NCBI RefSeq assembly: GCF_014279795.1
Contig: NZ_CP047945.1
Span: 392,572 to 456,571 of the forward strand
Reading direction: 5' to 3'
DNA length: 64,000 nucleotides
DNA from: Synechococcus sp. PROS-7-1
GTDB taxonomy: Bacteria; Cyanobacteriota; Cyanobacteriia; PCC-6307; Cyanobiaceae
Below, one piece after another: positions 14,091 through 32,053 of this stretch (position 1 is its first letter; each line of letters starts with the position of its first letter). Both the position numbers and the translations under genes were made by a program. A model generated the notes under the pieces. The model was not told where the DNA came from. It ran no database searches and saw nothing but the letters and a program-made list of their open reading frames with translations.

Positions 14091-14212
14091 CGCTGCGAGC
14101 ATGGGGATCGAAATGCAGCCTGGCGGCAGTTTGCTCTCCTGTCACCACTCCAGAAGACTGGAAATGATGCGATGGAGGGATGGTCATCGCCTTGTTTGAA
14201 TTCTCTCCTCTG

Positions 14213-14310
14213 GCCCAAGCCTTCTTTGCCCGCCCTGCCGAGCTGGTCGCCCCCGACCTGACTGGTTGCAGGTTGGTGAAACGCCAAGAGAGTGGCGCGT
14301 CGCTGTGGGG
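14213..14310 (+). pseudogene. mpg 5' fragment 1
   Basis: About 98 bases match codons roughly 19-50 of the intact mpg gene at 31,343. The translation reads [18 protein letters not shown] then [10 protein letters not shown], with the frame still open. After GGGG the match to mpg stops abruptly and an unrelated repeated segment begins. It lacks all catalytic residues, so it cannot make an active glycosylase. Confidence 0.85.
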
Positions 14311-14512
14311 CTCAAGGATGCTCAAGCGATTGGTGGAGACAAGAGGTGCTCACAGAAGCAAGAGAAAGCGTGTCTTACCAGGGCAGCAACAACTGCCTTT
14401 TGCATTTGATTGTCGCCTCAATCAAATCCCAGACGAGTGGCATCAGGTGGCGGTGAGATTTAGAAGAGCAAATGGCATCCGTGATAGCGATAGAGAGCGA
14501 TGTTATTGGTGA
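14311..14512 (+). repeat. mosaic repeat copy 1 (partner at 28,080-28,281)
   Basis: A 202-base segment of unknown origin joined directly to an mpg 5' fragment. The same junction and segment recur at 28,080-28,281 without indels. The open frame continues from the mpg fragment and gives a basic peptide (RMLKRLVE, then [11 protein letters not shown], then [13 protein letters not shown]). By hand count, 10 of about 65 codons differ in amino acid and about 8 differ silently, so purifying selection is not evident. I do not recognise the parent gene. Confidence 0.75.
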
Positions 14513-14691
14513 ATGTGTTGAAGGAATAAGGGTAGAAGTTAGGAGAAAGTATTGAGGATGGTTTTGGTGTGCCTTGAGTTTTTGTTGTGATGCACTGAGT
14601 GCCTTGATGGGGCTGTAGTTAGGCTGCGTTGATGGCGATGGTGCCAGGCATTGAAGGCTGAATGATGGCTCTTGGTGGTCTATTGAAAATA
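14513..14691. other. gene-free spacer with part of a duplicated module
   Basis: I find no convincing gene. The right half (from about 14,634) carries the recurring GTGCCAGGCAT element. From about 14,659 it carries a stretch that reappears almost unchanged at 30,341-30,417, downstream of another precursor gene. The left half is A/G-rich and featureless to me. Confidence 0.5.
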
Positions 14692-14720
14692 TAAAAAAAC
14701 CCCTACGACTGCAGGGGCTC
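14692..14720 (-). terminator. terminator of precursor A
   Basis: The palindrome CCCCTACGACTGCAGGGG is preceded on the plus strand by seven A's, so on the minus strand it is a hairpin followed by a T run. It lies about 50 bases after the stop of precursor A. The same hairpin follows precursor G. Confidence 0.8.
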
Positions 14721-14743
14721 TAGAGGATTAGGATGGCTAAGAG

Positions 14744-14756
14744 CCCCCCCCCCCCC
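14744..14756. repeat. poly-C tract (13 C)
   Basis: A 13-base run of C on the plus strand, 11 bases past the stop codon of precursor A and before its terminator. Runs of this length are prone to slippage. It lies in the 3' untranslated part, so no reading frame would change. Confidence 0.9.
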
Positions 14757-14767
14757 GTAAATAGGAA

Positions 14768-15049
14768 CTAATATTCCGGCACAATCACAGTGCAGCTGCG
14801 TATTGAAGAAATGAAACAGTCCCCAGCAGTAATATGATTTCCTGCAGCTCTCCCTGCAGCTACGCCTTCAAGCTCCTCTTCTGATACCTCTGCCTGAGCC
14901 CTCTTTAACTCCTCAGCAGAAATCACAAACCCCTCAGCCTTAGCAATCGCCACCACCGCATCCGCATCACCAGCTGCCTTCAGCTTCTCTTGAAGACCAG
15001 CATCAGCTTTAACGGCTTCCAGGAAAGCTTTGAGTTGCTCTTCTGACAT
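14768..15049 (-). CDS. lanthipeptide precursor A (prochlorosin type)
   Basis: A 93-residue precursor. The Nif11-type leader opens [18 protein letters not shown] and runs to [11 protein letters not shown]. The core is about 27 residues, starts [13 protein letters not shown], and has two cysteines (core 12 and 20), Thr8, Ser15, Ser16, Ser19 and Thr21, enough for two thioether rings. The usual Gly-Gly cut site is replaced by AAGRAAG, so cleavage could follow either AG. Its upstream region matches precursor H, while its leader 3' half and terminator match precursor G. The substrate role for the LanM at 17,255 is inferred from leader type and proximity. Confidence 0.88.
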
Positions 15050-15112
15050 TGCCGCGCTGTGAGTGGGTGTGATGCCTCCACTTTGGGTCATCCACAGCTT
15101 GATGTCAGCAGG

Positions 15113-15598
15113 ATGAATAAAGACCTGCAAGCCACTCCTATAGCCACCCAGCCCATCACCCAAGACTTCCCAGCCCTCCCCCAGAGCTTCTTCTGCCGCC
15201 CTGCCGAGCTGGTCGCCCCCGACCTGATTGGTTGCAGGTTGGTGAAACGCCAAGAGAGTGGCGAGTTGCTCTGGGGCGTGATTGTGGAAACGGAGGCGTA
15301 TTCGCTGGAGGAGCCTGCCTGCCACGGCTATCGGCGCAGGAGCCCTCAAAACGAAACGCTCTTTGGCGAGCCAGGGAGGTTTTATGTGTATGTGAGCTAT
15401 GGCATTCACCACTGCGTGAATGTGGTGACTGATCGCGCCGAGTGGGCCAATGGTGTGTTGCTCAGGGCTGTGGCCCTGCCTGGTGAGCCTGAGCGTGTGG
15501 CAGCGGGACCTGGGCTACTGGCTCGTCGCTTCGGGATCGACCGGCAGATGGATGGTTGTTCCGCCTGCTCCGGGCAGGATCTCTTCAGTAGGGCTTAA
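15113..15598 (+). pseudogene. mpg copy truncated at the 3' end
   Basis: Nearly identical to the first two thirds of the intact mpg (31,343-31,814), from the ATG through CSGQDL. The match breaks at about 15,584 and a short unrelated tail FSRA and stop follow. About 161 residues remain of 236, and the last third of the glycosylase fold is missing. It is divergent from precursor A with the same 63-base spacing that mpg has to precursor H, so precursor and mpg 5' part were duplicated together. Confidence 0.88.
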
Positions 15599-15800
15599 GA
15601 ATTGACGGACCTGGCTGTGCAGTGGTTTGAAATGTATGCGATTTGGTTGGCAGTAAAAGCAGATCAATATCTGCATGTGTGGTGGGCGATAGTGCCAGGT
15701 TCTAGGGGTTATTTTGATCCTTTAAGGGTGTGTGAAGGGCTAAGGATTCAGTGTATGGCAGAGGTTTTGATAAGGTAAATTGTAATAAAATGCATGCTTT
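15599..15800. other. gene-free spacer
   Basis: No convincing gene or RNA. It contains one copy of the short recurring motif GGGCGATAGTGCCAGGT (about 15,687-15,703), seen also at 16,173, and is A+T richer than the flanks. It follows the truncated mpg copy and precedes the tandem repeat at the end of precursor B. Confidence 0.5.
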
Positions 15801-16604: not shown

Positions 16605-16614
16605 CCCCCCCCCC
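16605..16614. repeat. poly-C tract (10 C)
   Basis: Ten consecutive C's on the plus strand between precursor C and mpg fragment 3. This is the second such tract in the island. Confidence 0.85.
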
Positions 16615-17254: not shown

Positions 17255-20200
17255 ATGAACCGGACCCAACAGTGGCTGGATCTCATCGCTCCAGACGAGC
17301 CCCACAAGCTCGAGCGACGCCTCGCCTGGGACCGCTGGGCTGACAGCAATGCTTTCGGGGAGTGGCTCTCGGCTCCACCGCAGCTCAAAACCAGCCATTC
17401 CAAAGCCTGGCAGCAGGCCCTGAGCCGTTGCCAGGGCTGGCTTCAGGGCGCCTGGGATCAGCCCCTCCAGCCGGTGCAGGCCAGCGAACAGCGGCCCTTT
17501 GTCGACCTCTGGCTACCGATTCGGGAAGGCGCCGCAGCAGAGCTGCATGCAGCTCTGGAGCGCAGCGCTGGACTAGATCGCATCGCCCCCAACGTGGTCG
17601 ATCAACTGGCCGACTCCCTGCTGAATCGGCTCTGCGCCATCGGCGATCAGGTGCTCTGGGATCAGTTCAATACGGGCCGTACGCCAGGAGCGATGCTGCT
17701 CGCCCATCTGGGGTCAGCAGGCGATGGAGAAGGGCCGCCGGTGCGGGAGCTCTACACCCGCTTCATCACAACGCACCGCCGCGATGGCTTGCAGAGCCTG
17801 CTCACCACCTTCCCCGTGTTGGGGCGCTTCATCGGCACGGTAGTGACCCTCTGGCATCAGGGCAGCCTGGAGATGCTGGAAAGGATCCAGAACGATCGCT
17901 CCATCCTGGCCAACAACTGTTCGATCCCAAGCGATTGGTGCCTGCAAGCGGTGCAGCAGGGCCTCAGTGATCCCCACCGTGGTGGCCGCGCTGTGGCCAT
18001 TCTCAGCTTCACATCACCAGATCGCAGCAACACCAAGCTTTTGGTCTACAAACCCAAAGACATGGGAGTGGATGCGGCCTACCAGGCCCTGATTGAGGAC
18101 CTCAATACCCACTCCGAGCTGCCTCCCCTGCGCAGCCTCGTGGTGCAGACCTGCGACGGCTACGGCTACATGGAGCATGTTGCCCACACTCTTTGCGCCA
18201 ACGCTGAGGAGCTGGAGCGCTACTACTGCAACGCCGGCCGTCTCACCGCCCTGCTGCACCTGCTCGGCTGCACCGATTGTCACCATGAAAATCTGATCGC
18301 CAGCGGTGATCAGTTGGTGCTGATCGACACGGAGACCCTTCTGGAAGCCGACCTTCCCGATCACATCCAGGCGGCTGCTGAGTCAGCAGAACACCAGGAG
18401 CCCTCAGACCTACAGCAGCGCTTTCGGGGCTCTGTGCTCAGATCCGGCTTGCTGCCCCAATGGTGGTTCATCGGCCAGGGCAAACAGGCGATTGACATCA
18501 GTGCCCTCGGAATTGCGCCTCCCGCGAAAGAGGAGATCACGATGGCTGGCTGGCTTGGGATCAACAGCGACGGCATGATGCCCGGCCGGATCAACCGAGC
18601 GGCCGAGTGCCCCACCAGCCTTCCGGTGGGCTTTGGCAACACCAATCCATTGTCTGAGCATCTTGAGCCGTTCTGCGCCGGTTTTCGGCTCCAAGCCCAA
18701 CAGTTCCTGCAGCTGCGCGAGCCTTGGTTGAGTCCAGAGAGTCCGCTGGAACGTTTTGCGGGACTACCGCGTCGGATCGTGTTGCGGGCCACGCGGGTGT
18801 ATTTCGCCTTGCAGCGGCAGCAATTGGAAGCCTCAGCCTTGCGTACAGAAGAAGCCCAGGCCCTGTGCCTCGAGCAGCTGAGCCGCAGCTTTCTTTTGGC
18901 TGAAAGTAAACCGCTGCACTGGCCAGTGTTTGCCGCCGAGCGCCAGCAAATGCAGCGGCTGGATATTCCGTTCTTCACGCATCCGATCGATCGCGATGGC
19001 TTGGAACTCGACGAGAATGGAGCGGTGCTGCCGGGATTCATCGAAACCAGTGGCCTGGCCTCAGCGCGCAACCGGCTTAGGGCCTTCAATGCAGCTGAAA
19101 TCGACTTTCAGGAGCGCTTGATTCGCGGCGCTGTGCAGGCGCGGGTTCTCAAGCAACGGCAAGAGGGTCGTCCAGCGAATGCCCACAACCAACAGGCTGA
19201 GACTGCGCAGCCGGCGCCTGCTATCACAGCGGTTGAGGCTGCCAGCACCATCGCCCAGATGCTGCTCGATCTAGCGATCCGAGATCCTCAGGGACAGATC
19301 GAGTGGTTGGGGATGGATCTTGGCGCCGATGGCGAGAGTTTTTCGTTTGGCCCGGTTGACCTCTCGCTCTATGGCGGTTCGATCGGCATCGCTTGCCTGT
19401 TGAAGCGTCTCCAATCACTCGGCAGCGCGCCTGCAGAGGTGGAGGCGATCCAGGCGGCGATCCTCAAACCACTGCATGACCTTGTGGGGCAATCCCATGG
19501 CGATGGGCTAAGGCGCTGGTGGCGCGATCAATCCCTGGGACTTAGTGGTTGCGGCGGCATCCTGCTGGCACTGCGCGAGATCGGTGAAACTGATCTGGCC
19601 GCCCAACTCCTGGAAGGAGCCCAGCCCCGCTTCATCAAGTCCGATCAGCAGTGGGATGTGATCGGTGGCTGCGCAGGCCTGATCGGCCCTTTACTACGGC
19701 TCGAATCCACGCGAGCGATTGAGCTGGCGGTCCTGGCGGGCGACAGGTTGCTGGAAACGCAGGATGAGGATGGCAGCTGGAGACAGTCGACGCGCCACTC
19801 TGGACTGCTTGGTTTTTCCCATGGCACCGCGGGCTATGCAGCTGCCCTGGCGCTCCTCCATCAGTCCACAGGAAAGGAGCGCTTTTTGAAGGCAGCACTC
19901 AAGTCTGTGAAGCATGAGCGAAGCCATTTCCATGCCGATGCCGGCAACTGGCCCGATTTTCGCTTCCAGCAGACACCCGAAGAAGGCCCTGCTTACATGG
20001 TGAGCTGGTGCCATGGCGCACCCGGTATTGCTCTCGGCCGCGCCTGTCTCTGGGGCACCGATCTCTGGGATGACCAGTGCGCTGAGGAACTCAGCATCGC
20101 CTTGGAAACCACAGCATCAATTAAGCAGCCAGGGATGGACCATCTCTGTTGCGGCACCCTCGGCCTGATGGTGCTGCTGCGTGATCTGGCGCAAGGTCCC

Positions 20201-20452
20201 TGGCTGGTGAACGAACGCGTCAAACAATTGGCAATGGCTCAAGCCAATCATTTGAAGAGGCAGGCGCTGGATCGATGCCAAGGCACGGAACCACAACTGC
20301 GCTGCTTTGGCACCCAGGAAGGCAACTTGGTGTTGCCAGGGTTCTTTACGGGCTTGAGCGGAATGGCCTTGGCGTTGTTGGAGGATCGTGACTCACAATG
20401 TGCAGCCAACACACTCTTAAGTGCCGGACTACTGCAAAAGTGCAGTCAATGA
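17255..20452 (+). CDS. lanM: class II lanthipeptide synthetase LanM (ProcM-like)
   Basis: A bifunctional 1065-residue enzyme that phosphorylates and eliminates Ser/Thr in precursor cores and then joins the dehydro residues to Cys. The N-terminal dehydratase (DUF4135) has K266 (LVYKP), the catalytic D341-x-H343-xx-N346 (GCTDCHHENLI) and D358-T-E360. The C-terminal LanC-like cyclase (about 700-1065) has zinc ligands C919 (WCHG) and C965-C966 (CCG). Most LanC domains have His at the last position; the third Cys marks the ProcM group of picocyanobacteria, known for many substrates. The 3' end overlaps the convergent ABC transporter gene by 7 bases. Confidence 0.96.
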   Translation: MNRTQQWLDLIAPDEPHKLERRLAWDRWADSNAFGEWLSAPPQLKTSHSKAWQQALSRCQGWLQGAWDQPLQPVQASEQRPFVDLWLPIREGAAAELHAALERSAGLDRIAPNVVDQLADSLLNRLCAIGDQVLWDQFNTGRTPGAMLLAHLGSAGDGEGPPVRELYTRFITTHRRDGLQSLLTTFPVLGRFIGTVVTLWHQGSLEMLERIQNDRSILANNCSIPSDWCLQAVQQGLSDPHRGGRAVAILSFTSPDRSNTKLLVYKPKDMGVDAAYQALIEDLNTHSELPPLRSLVVQTCDGYGYMEHVAHTLCANAEELERYYCNAGRLTALLHLLGCTDCHHENLIASGDQLVLIDTETLLEADLPDHIQAAAESAEHQEPSDLQQRFRGSVLRSGLLPQWWFIGQGKQAIDISALGIAPPAKEEITMAGWLGINSDGMMPGRINRAAECPTSLPVGFGNTNPLSEHLEPFCAGFRLQAQQFLQLREPWLSPESPLERFAGLPRRIVLRATRVYFALQRQQLEASALRTEEAQALCLEQLSRSFLLAESKPLHWPVFAAERQQMQRLDIPFFTHPIDRDGLELDENGAVLPGFIETSGLASARNRLRAFNAAEIDFQERLIRGAVQARVLKQRQEGRPANAHNQQAETAQPAPAITAVEAASTIAQMLLDLAIRDPQGQIEWLGMDLGADGESFSFGPVDLSLYGGSIGIACLLKRLQSLGSAPAEVEAIQAAILKPLHDLVGQSHGDGLRRWWRDQSLGLSGCGGILLALREIGETDLAAQLLEGAQPRFIKSDQQWDVIGGCAGLIGPLLRLESTRAIELAVLAGDRLLETQDEDGSWRQSTRHSGLLGFSHGTAGYAAALALLHQSTGKERFLKAALKSVKHERSHFHADAGNWPDFRFQQTPEEGPAYMVSWCHGAPGIALGRACLWGTDLWDDQCAEELSIALETTASIKQPGMDHLCCGTLGLMVLLRDLAQGPWLVNERVKQLAMAQANHLKRQALDRCQGTEPQLRCFGTQEGNLVLPGFFTGLSGMALALLEDRDSQCAANTLLSAGLLQKCSQ

Positions 20453-28079: not shown

Positions 28080-28281
28080 CTTAAGGATGCTCAAGCGATT
28101 GGTGGAGGCAAGAGGTGCTCATAGAAGCAAGAGAAGGCGTGTCTCGCCAGGGCAACAGCAACTGTCTTTTGCATTTGATTGTCGCCTCAATCAAATCCCA
28201 GAGGAGTGGAATCAGATAGCGGTGAGATTTAGGCGAGCCAATGGCATTCGTGATGGCGATAGGGAGCGAAGTATTTGGTAG
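28080..28281 (+). repeat. mosaic repeat copy 2 (partner at 14,311-14,512)
   Basis: Equal in length to copy 1, without indels and about 88% identical by eye. The translation contains [19 protein letters not shown] and [20 protein letters not shown]. Copies 1 and 2 bracket the block that holds precursors A-C, lanM and the exporter genes. Confidence 0.75.
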
Positions 28282-28555: not shown

Positions 28556-28798
28556 TCAGGCACACCAGCCACAGCTCAGGCCAATAGAGATTGTGCCCCC
28601 AGCGACGCCTTCCAACTCTTCATCCGAAAGCTCTGCCTGAGATTTCTTCAGCTCCTCAGCTGAAATCACAAAGCCTGCAGCCTTGGCAATCGTTACGACG
28701 GCATCGGCATCGGCATCGGCAGCTGCCTTAATTTTCTCCTGAAGCCCTGCATCCGCCTTGACGGCTTCCAGGAAAGCTTTGAGTTGCTCTTCTGACAT
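28556..28798 (-). CDS. lanthipeptide precursor D (prochlorosin type)
   Basis: An 80-residue precursor. The leader [18 protein letters not shown] has a small repeat expansion (ADADADAVV) and ends DEELEGVAGG. The core is TISIGLSCGWCA, only 12 residues, with Cys8 and Cys11 and Thr1, Ser3 and Ser7 as partners. Two interlocked or nested rings are possible, in a very hydrophobic product. The upstream region differs from the other precursors (short T run, TTGACAGTCA). Confidence 0.9.
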   Translation of the reverse strand: MSEEQLKAFLEAVKADAGLQEKIKAAADADADAVVTIAKAAGFVISAEELKKSQAELSDEELEGVAGGTISIGLSCGWCA

Positions 28799-29906: not shown

Positions 29907-30179
29907 TCAGCAGGCGCTGTCCCGTGTGTGCATTCCACCAGCAATGGCATTGAGGGCGATGGCATCCAGTTCGAAATCATCGAACTCATCATCGTCGTCC
30001 ATCTGCCTCAGAAAGCCACGCACCTCAGCAGAGATCACCGTCATCCCTTTCTCTGCTGCGATCTCCACCATGCGACGGATGGAGGCATCAGGGTCTGAGG
30101 TCATCAGCTTGAACAGCTCCCCTTGAACCTCTATGGACACTCCATCACGCAGTGCCTTGAACTCGTCCAGTGTTGCCAT
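29907..30179 (-). CDS. divergent Nif11-like peptide F
   Basis: A 90-residue protein opening MATLDEFKALRDGVSIEVQG, with an acidic patch MDDDDEFDDFELDAIALNA and the cut-like end IAGG. The tail after Gly-Gly is MHTRDSAC (eight residues; one Thr, one Ser, one Cys), enough for a single thioether ring. The leader is a different Nif11-type branch from the other seven precursors. Whether this LanM accepts it is unknown. An ATG one codon upstream (30,182) is also possible. Confidence 0.7.
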   Translation of the reverse strand: MATLDEFKALRDGVSIEVQGELFKLMTSDPDASIRRMVEIAAEKGMTVISAEVRGFLRQMDDDDEFDDFELDAIALNAIAGGMHTRDSAC

Positions 30180-30252
30180 CAAGGAAACCGCAGCGTGACT
30201 CCTTTGTAGCGGTGGACAACCCGTAAGTCTTCAGCGCAACCTAGCAGGCAAC

Positions 30253-30340: not shown

Positions 30341-30370
30341 CTGAATGATGGCTCTTGGTGGTCTATTGAA

Positions 30371-30399
30371 AAAATAAAAAACCCCTACGACTGCAGGGG
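30371..30399 (-). terminator. terminator of precursor G
   Basis: CCCCTACGACTGCAGGGG with a run of A's on the plus strand. Identical in sequence to the terminator of precursor A. Confidence 0.82.
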
Positions 30400-30459
30400 C
30401 TCTAAAGGATTAGGATGGGCTACAGAACCGGAACCGTACCTCTACCGCTCCCGCGCCTT

Positions 30460-30735
30460 TCAGGGACACAAACTTGACCAGATAACAGTCGTTAACGAAG
30501 CCTTGTAAGTGTCTACGTTACATCCGCCTGCAGCTACGCTTTCCAGCTCCTCTTCAGAAATCTCTGCCTGAAATCCCTTGTGAGATTTCTTCAGCTCCTC
30601 AGCAGAAATCACAAAGCCCTCAGCCTTAGCAATCGCCACCACAGCATCCGCATCGCCTGCTGCCTTCAGCTTCTCTTGGAGCCCCGCATCTGCCTGGACG
30701 GCTTGCAGGAAGGCTTTGAGTTGCTCTTCTGACAT
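30460..30735 (-). CDS. lanthipeptide precursor G (prochlorosin type)
   Basis: A 91-residue precursor. The leader [18 protein letters not shown] carries a unique four-residue insertion (HKGF) after LKKS and ends SEEELESVAAGG. The core is CNVDTYKASLTTVIWSSLCP, with Cys1 and Cys19 and Thr5, Ser9, Thr11, Thr12, Ser16 and Ser17. The two cysteines at opposite ends favour two separate or one large overlapping ring. It shares a 5' region with precursor E (about 45 bases before the ATG). Confidence 0.88.
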   Translation of the reverse strand: MSEEQLKAFLQAVQADAGLQEKLKAAGDADAVVAIAKAEGFVISAEELKKSHKGFQAEISEEELESVAAGGCNVDTYKASLTTVIWSSLCP

Positions 30736-31012: not shown

Positions 31013-31279
31013 TTAGTTGTTGCCTAGTGGCTCTGTAGTTTGATTAACACCATAACAGCTTTCTCTCCCAGTAATACAACCACCCCCAGCCACGGCTTCC
31101 AACTCTTCATCCGAAAGCTCTGCCTGTGATTTCTTCAGCTCCCCAGCTGAAATCACAAAACCTGCAGCCTTGGCAATTGCTACGACAGCATCAGCATCGG
31201 TAGCTGCCTTTAGCTTCTCTTGGAGCCCCGCATCTGCTTGGACGGCTTCCAGGAAGGCTTTGAGTTGCTCTTCTGACAT
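31013..31279 (-). CDS. lanthipeptide precursor H (prochlorosin type)
   Basis: An 88-residue precursor. The leader is [18 protein letters not shown] through [10 protein letters not shown]. The core begins [11 protein letters not shown] and continues for 11 more polar residues (with a TT pair) to the stop. Cysteines are at core positions 2 and 9; Thr4 and Ser8 lie between them, and the two Thr lie downstream. It is divergent from the intact mpg gene with 63 bases between starts, the arrangement that is duplicated at 14,768-15,584. Confidence 0.88.
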
Positions 31280-31342
31280 TGCCGCGCTGTGAGTGGGTGT
31301 AATGCCTCCATTTTGGGTCATCCACAGCTTGATGTCAGCAGG

Positions 31343-32053
31343 ATGAATAAAGACCTGCAAGCCACTCCCATAGCCATCCAGCCCATCACCCAAGACTTCC
31401 CAGCACTCCCCCAAGCCTTCTTCTGCCGCCCCGCTGAGCTGGTCGCCCCCGACTTGATTGGTTGCAGGTTGGTGAAACGCCAAGAGGGCGGCAGCCTCCT
31501 TTGGGGCGTGATTGTGGAAACGGAGGCGTATTCCCAGGAGGAGCCTGCCTGCCACGGCTATCGGCGCAGGAGCCCTCAAAACGAAACGCTCTTCGGGGAG
31601 CCTGGGCGTTTTTATGTGTATGTGAGCTATGGCATTCACCACTGCGTGAATGTGGTGACTGATCGCGCCGAGTGGGCGAATGGTGTGTTGCTCAGGGCTG
31701 TGGCCCTGCCTGGTGAGCCTGAGCGTGTGGCAGCGGGACCTGGGCTACTGGCTCGTCGCTTCGGGATCGACCGGCAGATGGATGGTTGTTCCGCCTGCTC
31801 CGGGCAGGATCTCTGGATCGCTCCGCGCCCTTCGGAGCTGCAGAATCTGGCGCTGGTCACCACCACCCGCATCGGGATTGCCCGAGCGCAGGAGTGGCCG
31901 TGGCGCTGGTATCTCCAAGCCAGCCGCAGCGTGAGCAAACGGGCCAAGGGAGACCGCAAGCCACTGCTGCAGGACGCCTACCAGCCCAATGCTGCCTGGG
32001 CGAATGGATCTCCTCCCACTAAGCTTCAGCAGAGTGAGCGGACGCCCAGTTGA
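31343..32053 (+). CDS. mpg: DNA-3-methyladenine glycosylase (AAG/Mpg family)
   Basis: Excises alkylated and deaminated purines in base excision repair. The 236-residue protein has the AAG fold signatures ARxLLG-like ([19 protein letters not shown]), catalytic [15 protein letters not shown] (with the base-activating Glu), [15 protein letters not shown] and the [19 protein letters not shown] stretch. The ATG at 31,343 fits family length; a GTG 54 bases upstream is less likely. This is the only intact copy; four fragments of its 5' part lie in the island to the left. The stop overlaps the TTG start of pyrB. Confidence 0.93.

Follow-up and report, generated by a model that had tools for sequence, protein, structure and literature searches.

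The prochlorosin-type precursor genes of this genome and its relatives are likely to swap segments with one another by homologous recombination or gene conversion, the leader of about 200 bp acting as the 5′ homology arm, and many of these genes are likely to be patchworks. Precursor A is one patchwork among many. The initial annotation had described A as a recombinant of G-like and H-like parents, and its mechanism is broadly right, but the pedigree that it gave to A, G and H is not supported.

The window, a stretch of 64 kb from a marine Synechococcus-type genome that consists of a single contig of 2,565,218 bp, carries a prochlorosin (Nif11-leader lanthipeptide) array whose seven precursors with Nif11 leaders (A-E, G and H) all lie on the minus strand. 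The array includes a ProcM-like LanM synthetase of 1065 aa (17255..20452, plus strand; TIGR03897, 760.7 bits), with CHG at residue 919 and, as is characteristic of prochlorosin systems, a CCG zinc motif at residue 965. Transport genes in the window encode ABC transporters, one of them with a C39 peptidase, and HlyD and OEP proteins. Further precursor clusters of the same genome (G000) lie at loci L001 (six units) and L002 (four units), and the genome has 24 matches to TIGR03798 at E up to 0.001. Precursor A (14768..15049, minus strand) is an open reading frame for a Nif11-leader prochlorosin-type peptide of 93 aa, with a leader of about 66 codons (14,852-15,049) and a core of 27 residues (14,771-14,851) that contains two Cys and five Ser/Thr. 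Precursors G (30460..30735), H (31013..31279) and D (28556..28798) lie on the same strand. The leaders of A, G and H are of the Nif11 type, scoring 80.0, 78.7 and 85.3 bits respectively against a TIGR03798 cut-off of 32.3. The cleavage-type motif before the core reads VAAG in A, VAAGG in G and VAGGG in H, and the Ala-Gly of A may be a variant of the double-Gly-type motif. VAAG, put forward as a mark of A and G, is indeed confined to these two among the 17 units of this genome, but three units of other genomes carry it as well. A further open reading frame of 91 aa, F (29907-30182), ends in AIAGG followed by a very short possible core, MHTRDSAC; it matched no Pfam family above cut-off and no NCBIfam model.

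Shifting relatives along the precursor A leader

Compared without gaps, the DNA upstream of A (15,050-15,584) and that upstream of H (31,280-31,814) are identical at 508 of 535 positions. Over the gap-free alignment of 14,857-15,584, these 27 mismatches outside the leader stand against 37 in the 193 positions inside it (Fisher p=3e-8). The best split of the alignment falls at 15,012, near leader codon 13, with 36/155 mismatches below and 28/573 above, a separation reached by none of 5000 permutations (p=2e-4), and a second split falls at 15,380 (p=0.019). Together with the rejection of an A+H grouping in the 3′ half of the leader (below), this confirms that A is a mosaic. The splits place the end of the H-likeness within about the first 13 leader codons; the switch proposed for A does lie inside the leader, but at its 5′ end and not mid-leader. 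Its position is approximate, since 15,027-15,070 is free of mismatches between A and H and codons 1-7, which lie within this interval, are nearly alike in most of the 17 units of the genome.

The near-identity to H that had been claimed for the region upstream of A applies to 15380..15584 (plus strand), a part of the truncated mpg copy that matches the intact mpg gene (31,610-31,814) at 204 of 205 positions and, as the closest A-H block, is probably the most recent exchange. It does not extend evenly over the adjoining block (15012..15379; 27/368 mismatches to H), which comprises the rest of the mpg copy, the intergenic region, the ATG and the first 13 or so leader codons: similarity is weakest at mpg positions 106-219 (15,164-15,277 at A), with 99 of 114 positions identical, which makes the upstream block patchy in its own right. 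Over the 100 bases that precede the ATG, H and a unit of a different genome, L063_6256 of G028, are equally near to A (score 0.92 each).

Downstream of the switch the nearest unit appears to change from L001_10277 to G and then to L002_5545, in a comparison of a few chosen units in which the differences are small. Codons 13-26 (14972..15013, minus strand) differ from L001_10277 at 4/42 positions, from H at 7/42 and from G at 8/42. Codons 27-47 (14909..14971, minus strand) are G-like, with 3/63 mismatches to G against 8/63 to L001_11178 and 14/63 to H, and codons 48-65 (14855..14908, minus strand) are nearest to L002_5545 (5/54), followed by G and L001_11178 (10/54 each) and H (17/54). The mismatches between A and G in codons 48-65 are in excess of those in the two flanking segments (Fisher p=0.011), and the 17-residue stretch found in the 3′ half of the A and G leaders is also present in L001_11178. 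The G-likeness of the leader 3′ half is thus strongest in codons 27-47, whereas codons 48-65 are nearer to L002_5545.

Trees built with IQ-TREE from the 3′ half of the leader group A with G (support 94/98) and H with D (95/93, starred), and AU tests on this half reject both A+H (p=0.008) and G+H (p=0.027). The 5′ half groups G with H (87/88), and the AU test there rejects neither A+H (0.116) nor A+G (0.152). Because the two halves of the leader give opposing groupings, G and H are mosaics, as A is. G has an H-like leader 5′ half, an A-like leader 3′ half and terminator, and a core of its own; H has A-like upstream DNA, a G-like leader 5′ half and a D-like 3′ half. Conflicting relatives for adjoining segments of one gene, the pattern expected of intragenic recombination, were found by the split test, the trees and the segment comparison. 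Triplet tests of the 3SEQ type within the leader gave no significant result (best p=0.07), and PHI on all 17 leaders gave p=0.55 with a window of 100 and p=0.05 with a window of 50, reaching p=0.0015 (window 50) only when the four divergent rows C, D, L002_5029 and L002_9002 were left out; by themselves, the triplet tests and PHI on the 17 leaders are no proof of recombination.

Core, downstream module and mpg locus of precursor A

The core of A has no clear similarity to that of G (shuffle p=0.49) or of H (p=0.07), and none of the other 218 units sampled qualifies as its donor (best core score 0.33). Core and leader tail were absent from 30 other genomes of the genus, the one match among 31 being the genome itself, and phage records contained no match for 14,640-15,600. 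As the core resembles neither the G nor the H core, no core swap is directly visible in A.

Past the stop codon, A resembles G again. As the initial annotation had stated, the module at 14659..14734 (minus strand), in which a terminator scan places a terminator-like stem-loop at 14,696-14,721 followed by a T-run, matches that of G at 30341..30417 (minus strand), with 73 of 78 columns identical. Past the terminator the two part: G is followed by intergenic DNA of the common type, A by a transposase remnant that has its nearest relative beside L063_6256. The terminator of L065_4785 in G028, which stands outside a transposase context, is fairly similar (84% over 81 bases). A and G are alike in codons 27-47 and in the terminator and unlike in codons 48-65 and the core, which is the pattern expected from replacement of a core cassette in a common backbone. 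Scored by local alignment (these are alignment scores, not identities), the leader 3′ module of the units in the A genome correlates with the downstream module (0.74, p=0.002), and the upstream module correlates with neither leader half nor the downstream module (p 0.09-0.17; 0.16, p=0.17, with the leader 5′ half and 0.24, p=0.09, with the downstream module). The correlations differ in G028, where leader 3′ and downstream modules give 0.15 (p=0.17) and upstream and leader 5′ modules 0.29 (p=0.03).

Several further sequence features were observed. Of the 14 genomic copies of the element GTGCCAGGYATYG (one of them at 14641-14653), 13 lie in prochlorosin clusters, and the reversed control pattern has no copy; a motif related to it occurs within 250 nt past the stop in 106 of 219 units. 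A lone copy of the intergenic/terminator module lies far from the clusters at L166:868-1062 (G000:C1:2,073,667-2,073,861), a place for which no TIGR03798 match is listed. Runs of 13 C at 14744-14756, just past the stop of A, and of 10 C at 16605-16614 are possible slippage sites.

H-like upstream DNA joined to a G-like leader 3′ half and terminator is what a child of G-like and H-like parents would inherit through a single crossover in the leader. We nevertheless consider this quite unlikely, and with it the parentage initially proposed, given that codons 13-26 are nearest to L001_10277 and codons 48-65 to L002_5545, that the core is found in neither G nor H, that the transposase flank is nearest to L063_6256 of another genome, and that the supposed parents are mosaics themselves. 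Next to mpg, H and G lie side by side in one orientation, and a single deletion joining their tandem leaders in a copied mpg-H-G segment could also have left an mpg/H front with a G terminator. This route is very unlikely, as the core of A is not that of G, from which only a later core replacement could rescue it, and leader codons 13-26 fit neither G nor H best. A possibility of greater weight, though not one we favour, reverses the arrow: G, a generic unit whose leader front was H-like, would have received its leader 3′ half and its terminator from A or from a unit like A. The grouping of its leader 5′ half with H and 3′ half with A agrees with this, as does an A-like terminator set between upstream and far-downstream DNA of common type; against it, the terminator of L065_4785 indicates that this type is not exclusive to A-like units, the best triplet test stops at p=0.07, and the cores of A and G are unrelated. 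The reading that we prefer is of A as a patchwork assembled in several exchanges.

The flanks of A contain fragments of mpg and of a transposase gene. The intact mpg gene (methylpurine-DNA glycosylase; 31289..32053, plus strand; PF02245, 5e-50) is an open frame from GTG, divergent from H, and is followed by a pyrB-like gene (PF02729/PF00185). The truncated copy upstream of A (15059..15584, plus strand) comprises positions 1-526 of the 765 of mpg and is 94.9% identical to the intact gene. A 5′ stub (14198..14311, plus strand), probably the original, lies about 95 bp from a Vut_1 gene and is joined at mpg position 219 to a Y1 (IS200-like) transposase gene of which the 3′ end and its flank remain (14312..14650, plus strand), convergent with A. 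The remnant is 93% identical to a copy at L063 of G028 and 76% to the copy beside D, a precursor likewise followed by a transposase remnant and a fragment of mpg. The remnant beside A matches neither PF01797 nor any NCBIfam model itself; its identification as a transposase comes from intact copies that resemble it in nucleotide and protein sequence, and three intact relatives, all in other genomes, match PF01797 at E of about 1e-13. The junction of mpg position 219 with the transposase 3′ end was observed at 14311/14312, at 28080/28083 beside D, at L001:10944/10945, at L063:6929/6930 (G028) and at L078:3824/3825 (G017). Common to several units in three genomes, it is probably the scar of an old duplication, and judging from such sequence comparisons the mpg and Y1 transposase fragments appear to mark old duplications of units. 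At four loci (L066, L068, L070 and L073) the module map has Vut_1, mpg and pyrB in succession, with no cluster at mpg, and the distance of about 95 bp between Vut_1 and mpg in the window is as in L070 and L073 (about 170 bp in L066 and 740 bp in L068). Set beside these cluster-free loci, the 5′ stub and the intact mpg on either side of the array suggest that the prochlorosin cluster lies within a split, partly duplicated mpg locus.

A Y1 transposase whose 3′ end faces the precursor might have carried units as cargo. Copies or remnants face a precursor in 3/3 cases in G000, 4/5 in G028, 1/1 in G019, 2/3 in G030 and 2/3 in G012, and transposases bordered by nif11-domain genes are described for MIT9313 in the available text of PMC2784084. 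None of the 11 Y1 transposase copies or fragments of G013 faces a prochlorosin gene, however, so that the total is 12/26 over six genomes, a hand count that includes related and hence non-independent copies. In G000 and G028 the remnants are all pieces of the 3′ end, 14 of the 17 units of the A genome have no remnant, and transposon ends would not be expected to give switches inside the leader. We judge carriage as cargo unlikely, and return to exchange by recombination between units.

Core sharing among 219 units of six genomes

Comparison of cores was based on 219 units in the stretches retrieved from six genomes, selected by leader start motif, cleavage-type motif and flank length. The units extracted amounted to 17 of 24 TIGR03798 hits in G000, 21/38 in G028 and 15/35 in G019 (E up to 0.001), and, at E up to 1e-12, to 57/98 in G025, 16/39 in G004 and 93 against at least 150 hits in G017, for which the scoring covered 150 of 276 candidates. 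A core had to measure at least 36 nt and was counted as shared at a score above 0.45, the highest of 20,000 shuffled comparisons being 0.444. By this measure 13 of 23,871 pairs share a core, three within one genome and ten between G017 and G025; the latter ten are not independent of strain history. A fixed-penalty tract finder was dropped because it could not separate a tract from the conserved leader background, and the split test was used instead.

In eight of the 13 core-sharing pairs the match switches on, read 5′ to 3′, at leader codons 45, 42, 39, 29, 15, 21, 12 and 63 (p 0.001-0.036), the last of these being the leader-core junction, and mismatches concentrate 5′ of the split. One of 300 random control pairs gave a switch, and five of the eight survive correction for 13 tests (0.05/13). 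When the leader alone was considered, 6/13 core-sharing pairs reached p<0.05 against 15/300 controls. The switches in these eight pairs fall in the leader or at its end, where the units are homologous, as expected of breakpoints of homologous recombination. The five pairs without a leader switch indicate that the boundary often, but not always, falls in the leader.

Four pairs contain exact runs of 101-242 bp, which take in the tail of the leader, the core and 44-95 bp beyond the stop codon. The strongest single pair, L149_1611/L154_2027, is taken from a multi-contig assembly (both units are from G025) and has an exact run of 212 bp from ATG+141 (leader codon 48) to stop+44; 5′ of codon 45 the two leaders have 31/132 mismatched sites, and their upstream regions are unrelated. 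The other runs measure 177 bp (ATG+114 to stop+45), 242 bp (ATG+117 to stop+95) and 101 bp (ATG+174 to stop+44). Core sharing bounded by the leader is thus seen in gene pairs other than A-H, and it is these pairs that support the proposal that the leader is a site of homologous recombination that swaps cores; in A no swap can be seen. Upstream DNA is shared (score >0.7) by 201 pairs, of which A-H is an ordinary member, and in only two of these is the core shared as well.

One core-sharing pair, L063_9303/L064_8087, encodes identical precursor proteins in two clusters of G028. The two genes resemble each other from 130 bp ahead of the ATG to the end of the core, with 96% identical DNA from ATG-130 to stop+124, and represent a recent whole-gene exchange or copy.

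These data also bear on an origin without recombination, in which whole genes were duplicated and the cores then diverged rapidly by indels while leaders and promoters were conserved. The lack of relationship between cores in nearly all pairs would agree with it, and indel-driven core change is one of two mechanisms given in the available text of PMC10783134. Core divergence could not, however, produce near-identical cores under differing leader fronts, several of them with unrelated upstream DNA. The A-H leader divergence (dS about 1.1) is far above the 5% difference in the adjoining truncated mpg, and the exact 212-bp run within one genome contradicts this origin unless it is an assembly error. 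We regard duplication and divergence without recombination as extremely unlikely, and exchange between units as the likely process.

Proposed exchange route and its relation to known systems

The leader, as the long stretch common to the units, would serve as the 5′ homology arm, and conserved sequence past the stop, namely the terminator and the nearby 3′ element, is probably the 3′ arm. Exchange between the arms would place an intact core, together with the leader tail and the first bases past the stop, under a new upstream region and leader front. A would be the product of several such events: an H-like front to about codon 13 followed by a leader of shifting relatives, G among them, a core with no donor among the sampled units, a G-like terminator and the transposase/mpg flank of an older duplicated unit. 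RecA-type homologous recombination as the agent is our inference, as are the 3′ arm and any order or direction given to the exchanges that shaped A. More speculatively, leader and 3′ element might be kept alike in DNA as the homology arms of a core-cassette exchange that spans strains, with a promiscuous synthetase accepting any core; we put this forward as a tentative idea.

Replacement of a variable segment steered by conserved flanks is familiar from cassette gene conversion and from the core cassettes of cyanobactins. The conserved flanks are common to those systems and to the one described here, in which the units are by contrast read as complete genes. A 2017 paper in PNAS reportedly concerns the radiation of prochlorosins. 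The array in the window has the features of the prochlorosin/SyncA systems (ProcA, ProcM) of marine picocyanobacteria, with a Nif11 leader, hypervariable cores, one LanM with CCG, a C39 transporter and several precursor clusters. The diversity of prochlorosins has been ascribed to horizontal transfer and core indels, and recombination-related proteins encoded nearby have been put forward as possible generators of it; the available text of that report (PMC10783134) describes neither an exchange of intact cores bounded by the leader nor units with mpg/transposase fragments. In an island of Prochlorococcus MIT9313, according to the part of PMC2784084 that is available, degraded transposases stand beside nif11-domain genes as they do here, whereas in the present genomes it is the 3′ end of a Y1 transposase, convergent with the precursor and joined to an mpg 5′ fragment, that recurs in several genomes. 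Leader regions have been regarded as places of recombination before, in the intragenic recombination proposed between the NHLP and N11P leader families in the accessible text of PMC2887384; there the exchange is between families, whereas here it is between paralogous units, with exact runs of up to 242 bp. In the literature on prochlorosin and lanthipeptide recombination, gene conversion, duplication and transposases, searched by title and abstract opening and largely outside the subscription journals, no report of leader-bounded core exchange was found.

The dozens of unrelated cyclic peptides that picocyanobacteria encode for a single synthetase are usually traced to duplication and core indels. 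Exact runs that include the core and the first bases past the stop, lying under differing leader fronts, point to a second and faster route, the transfer of whole cores through recombination in the leader. Whole-core exchange makes predictions that can be checked by population sequencing or by a two-gene assay, and its bearing on the family is that leader trees of the precursors need not reflect the history of their cores.
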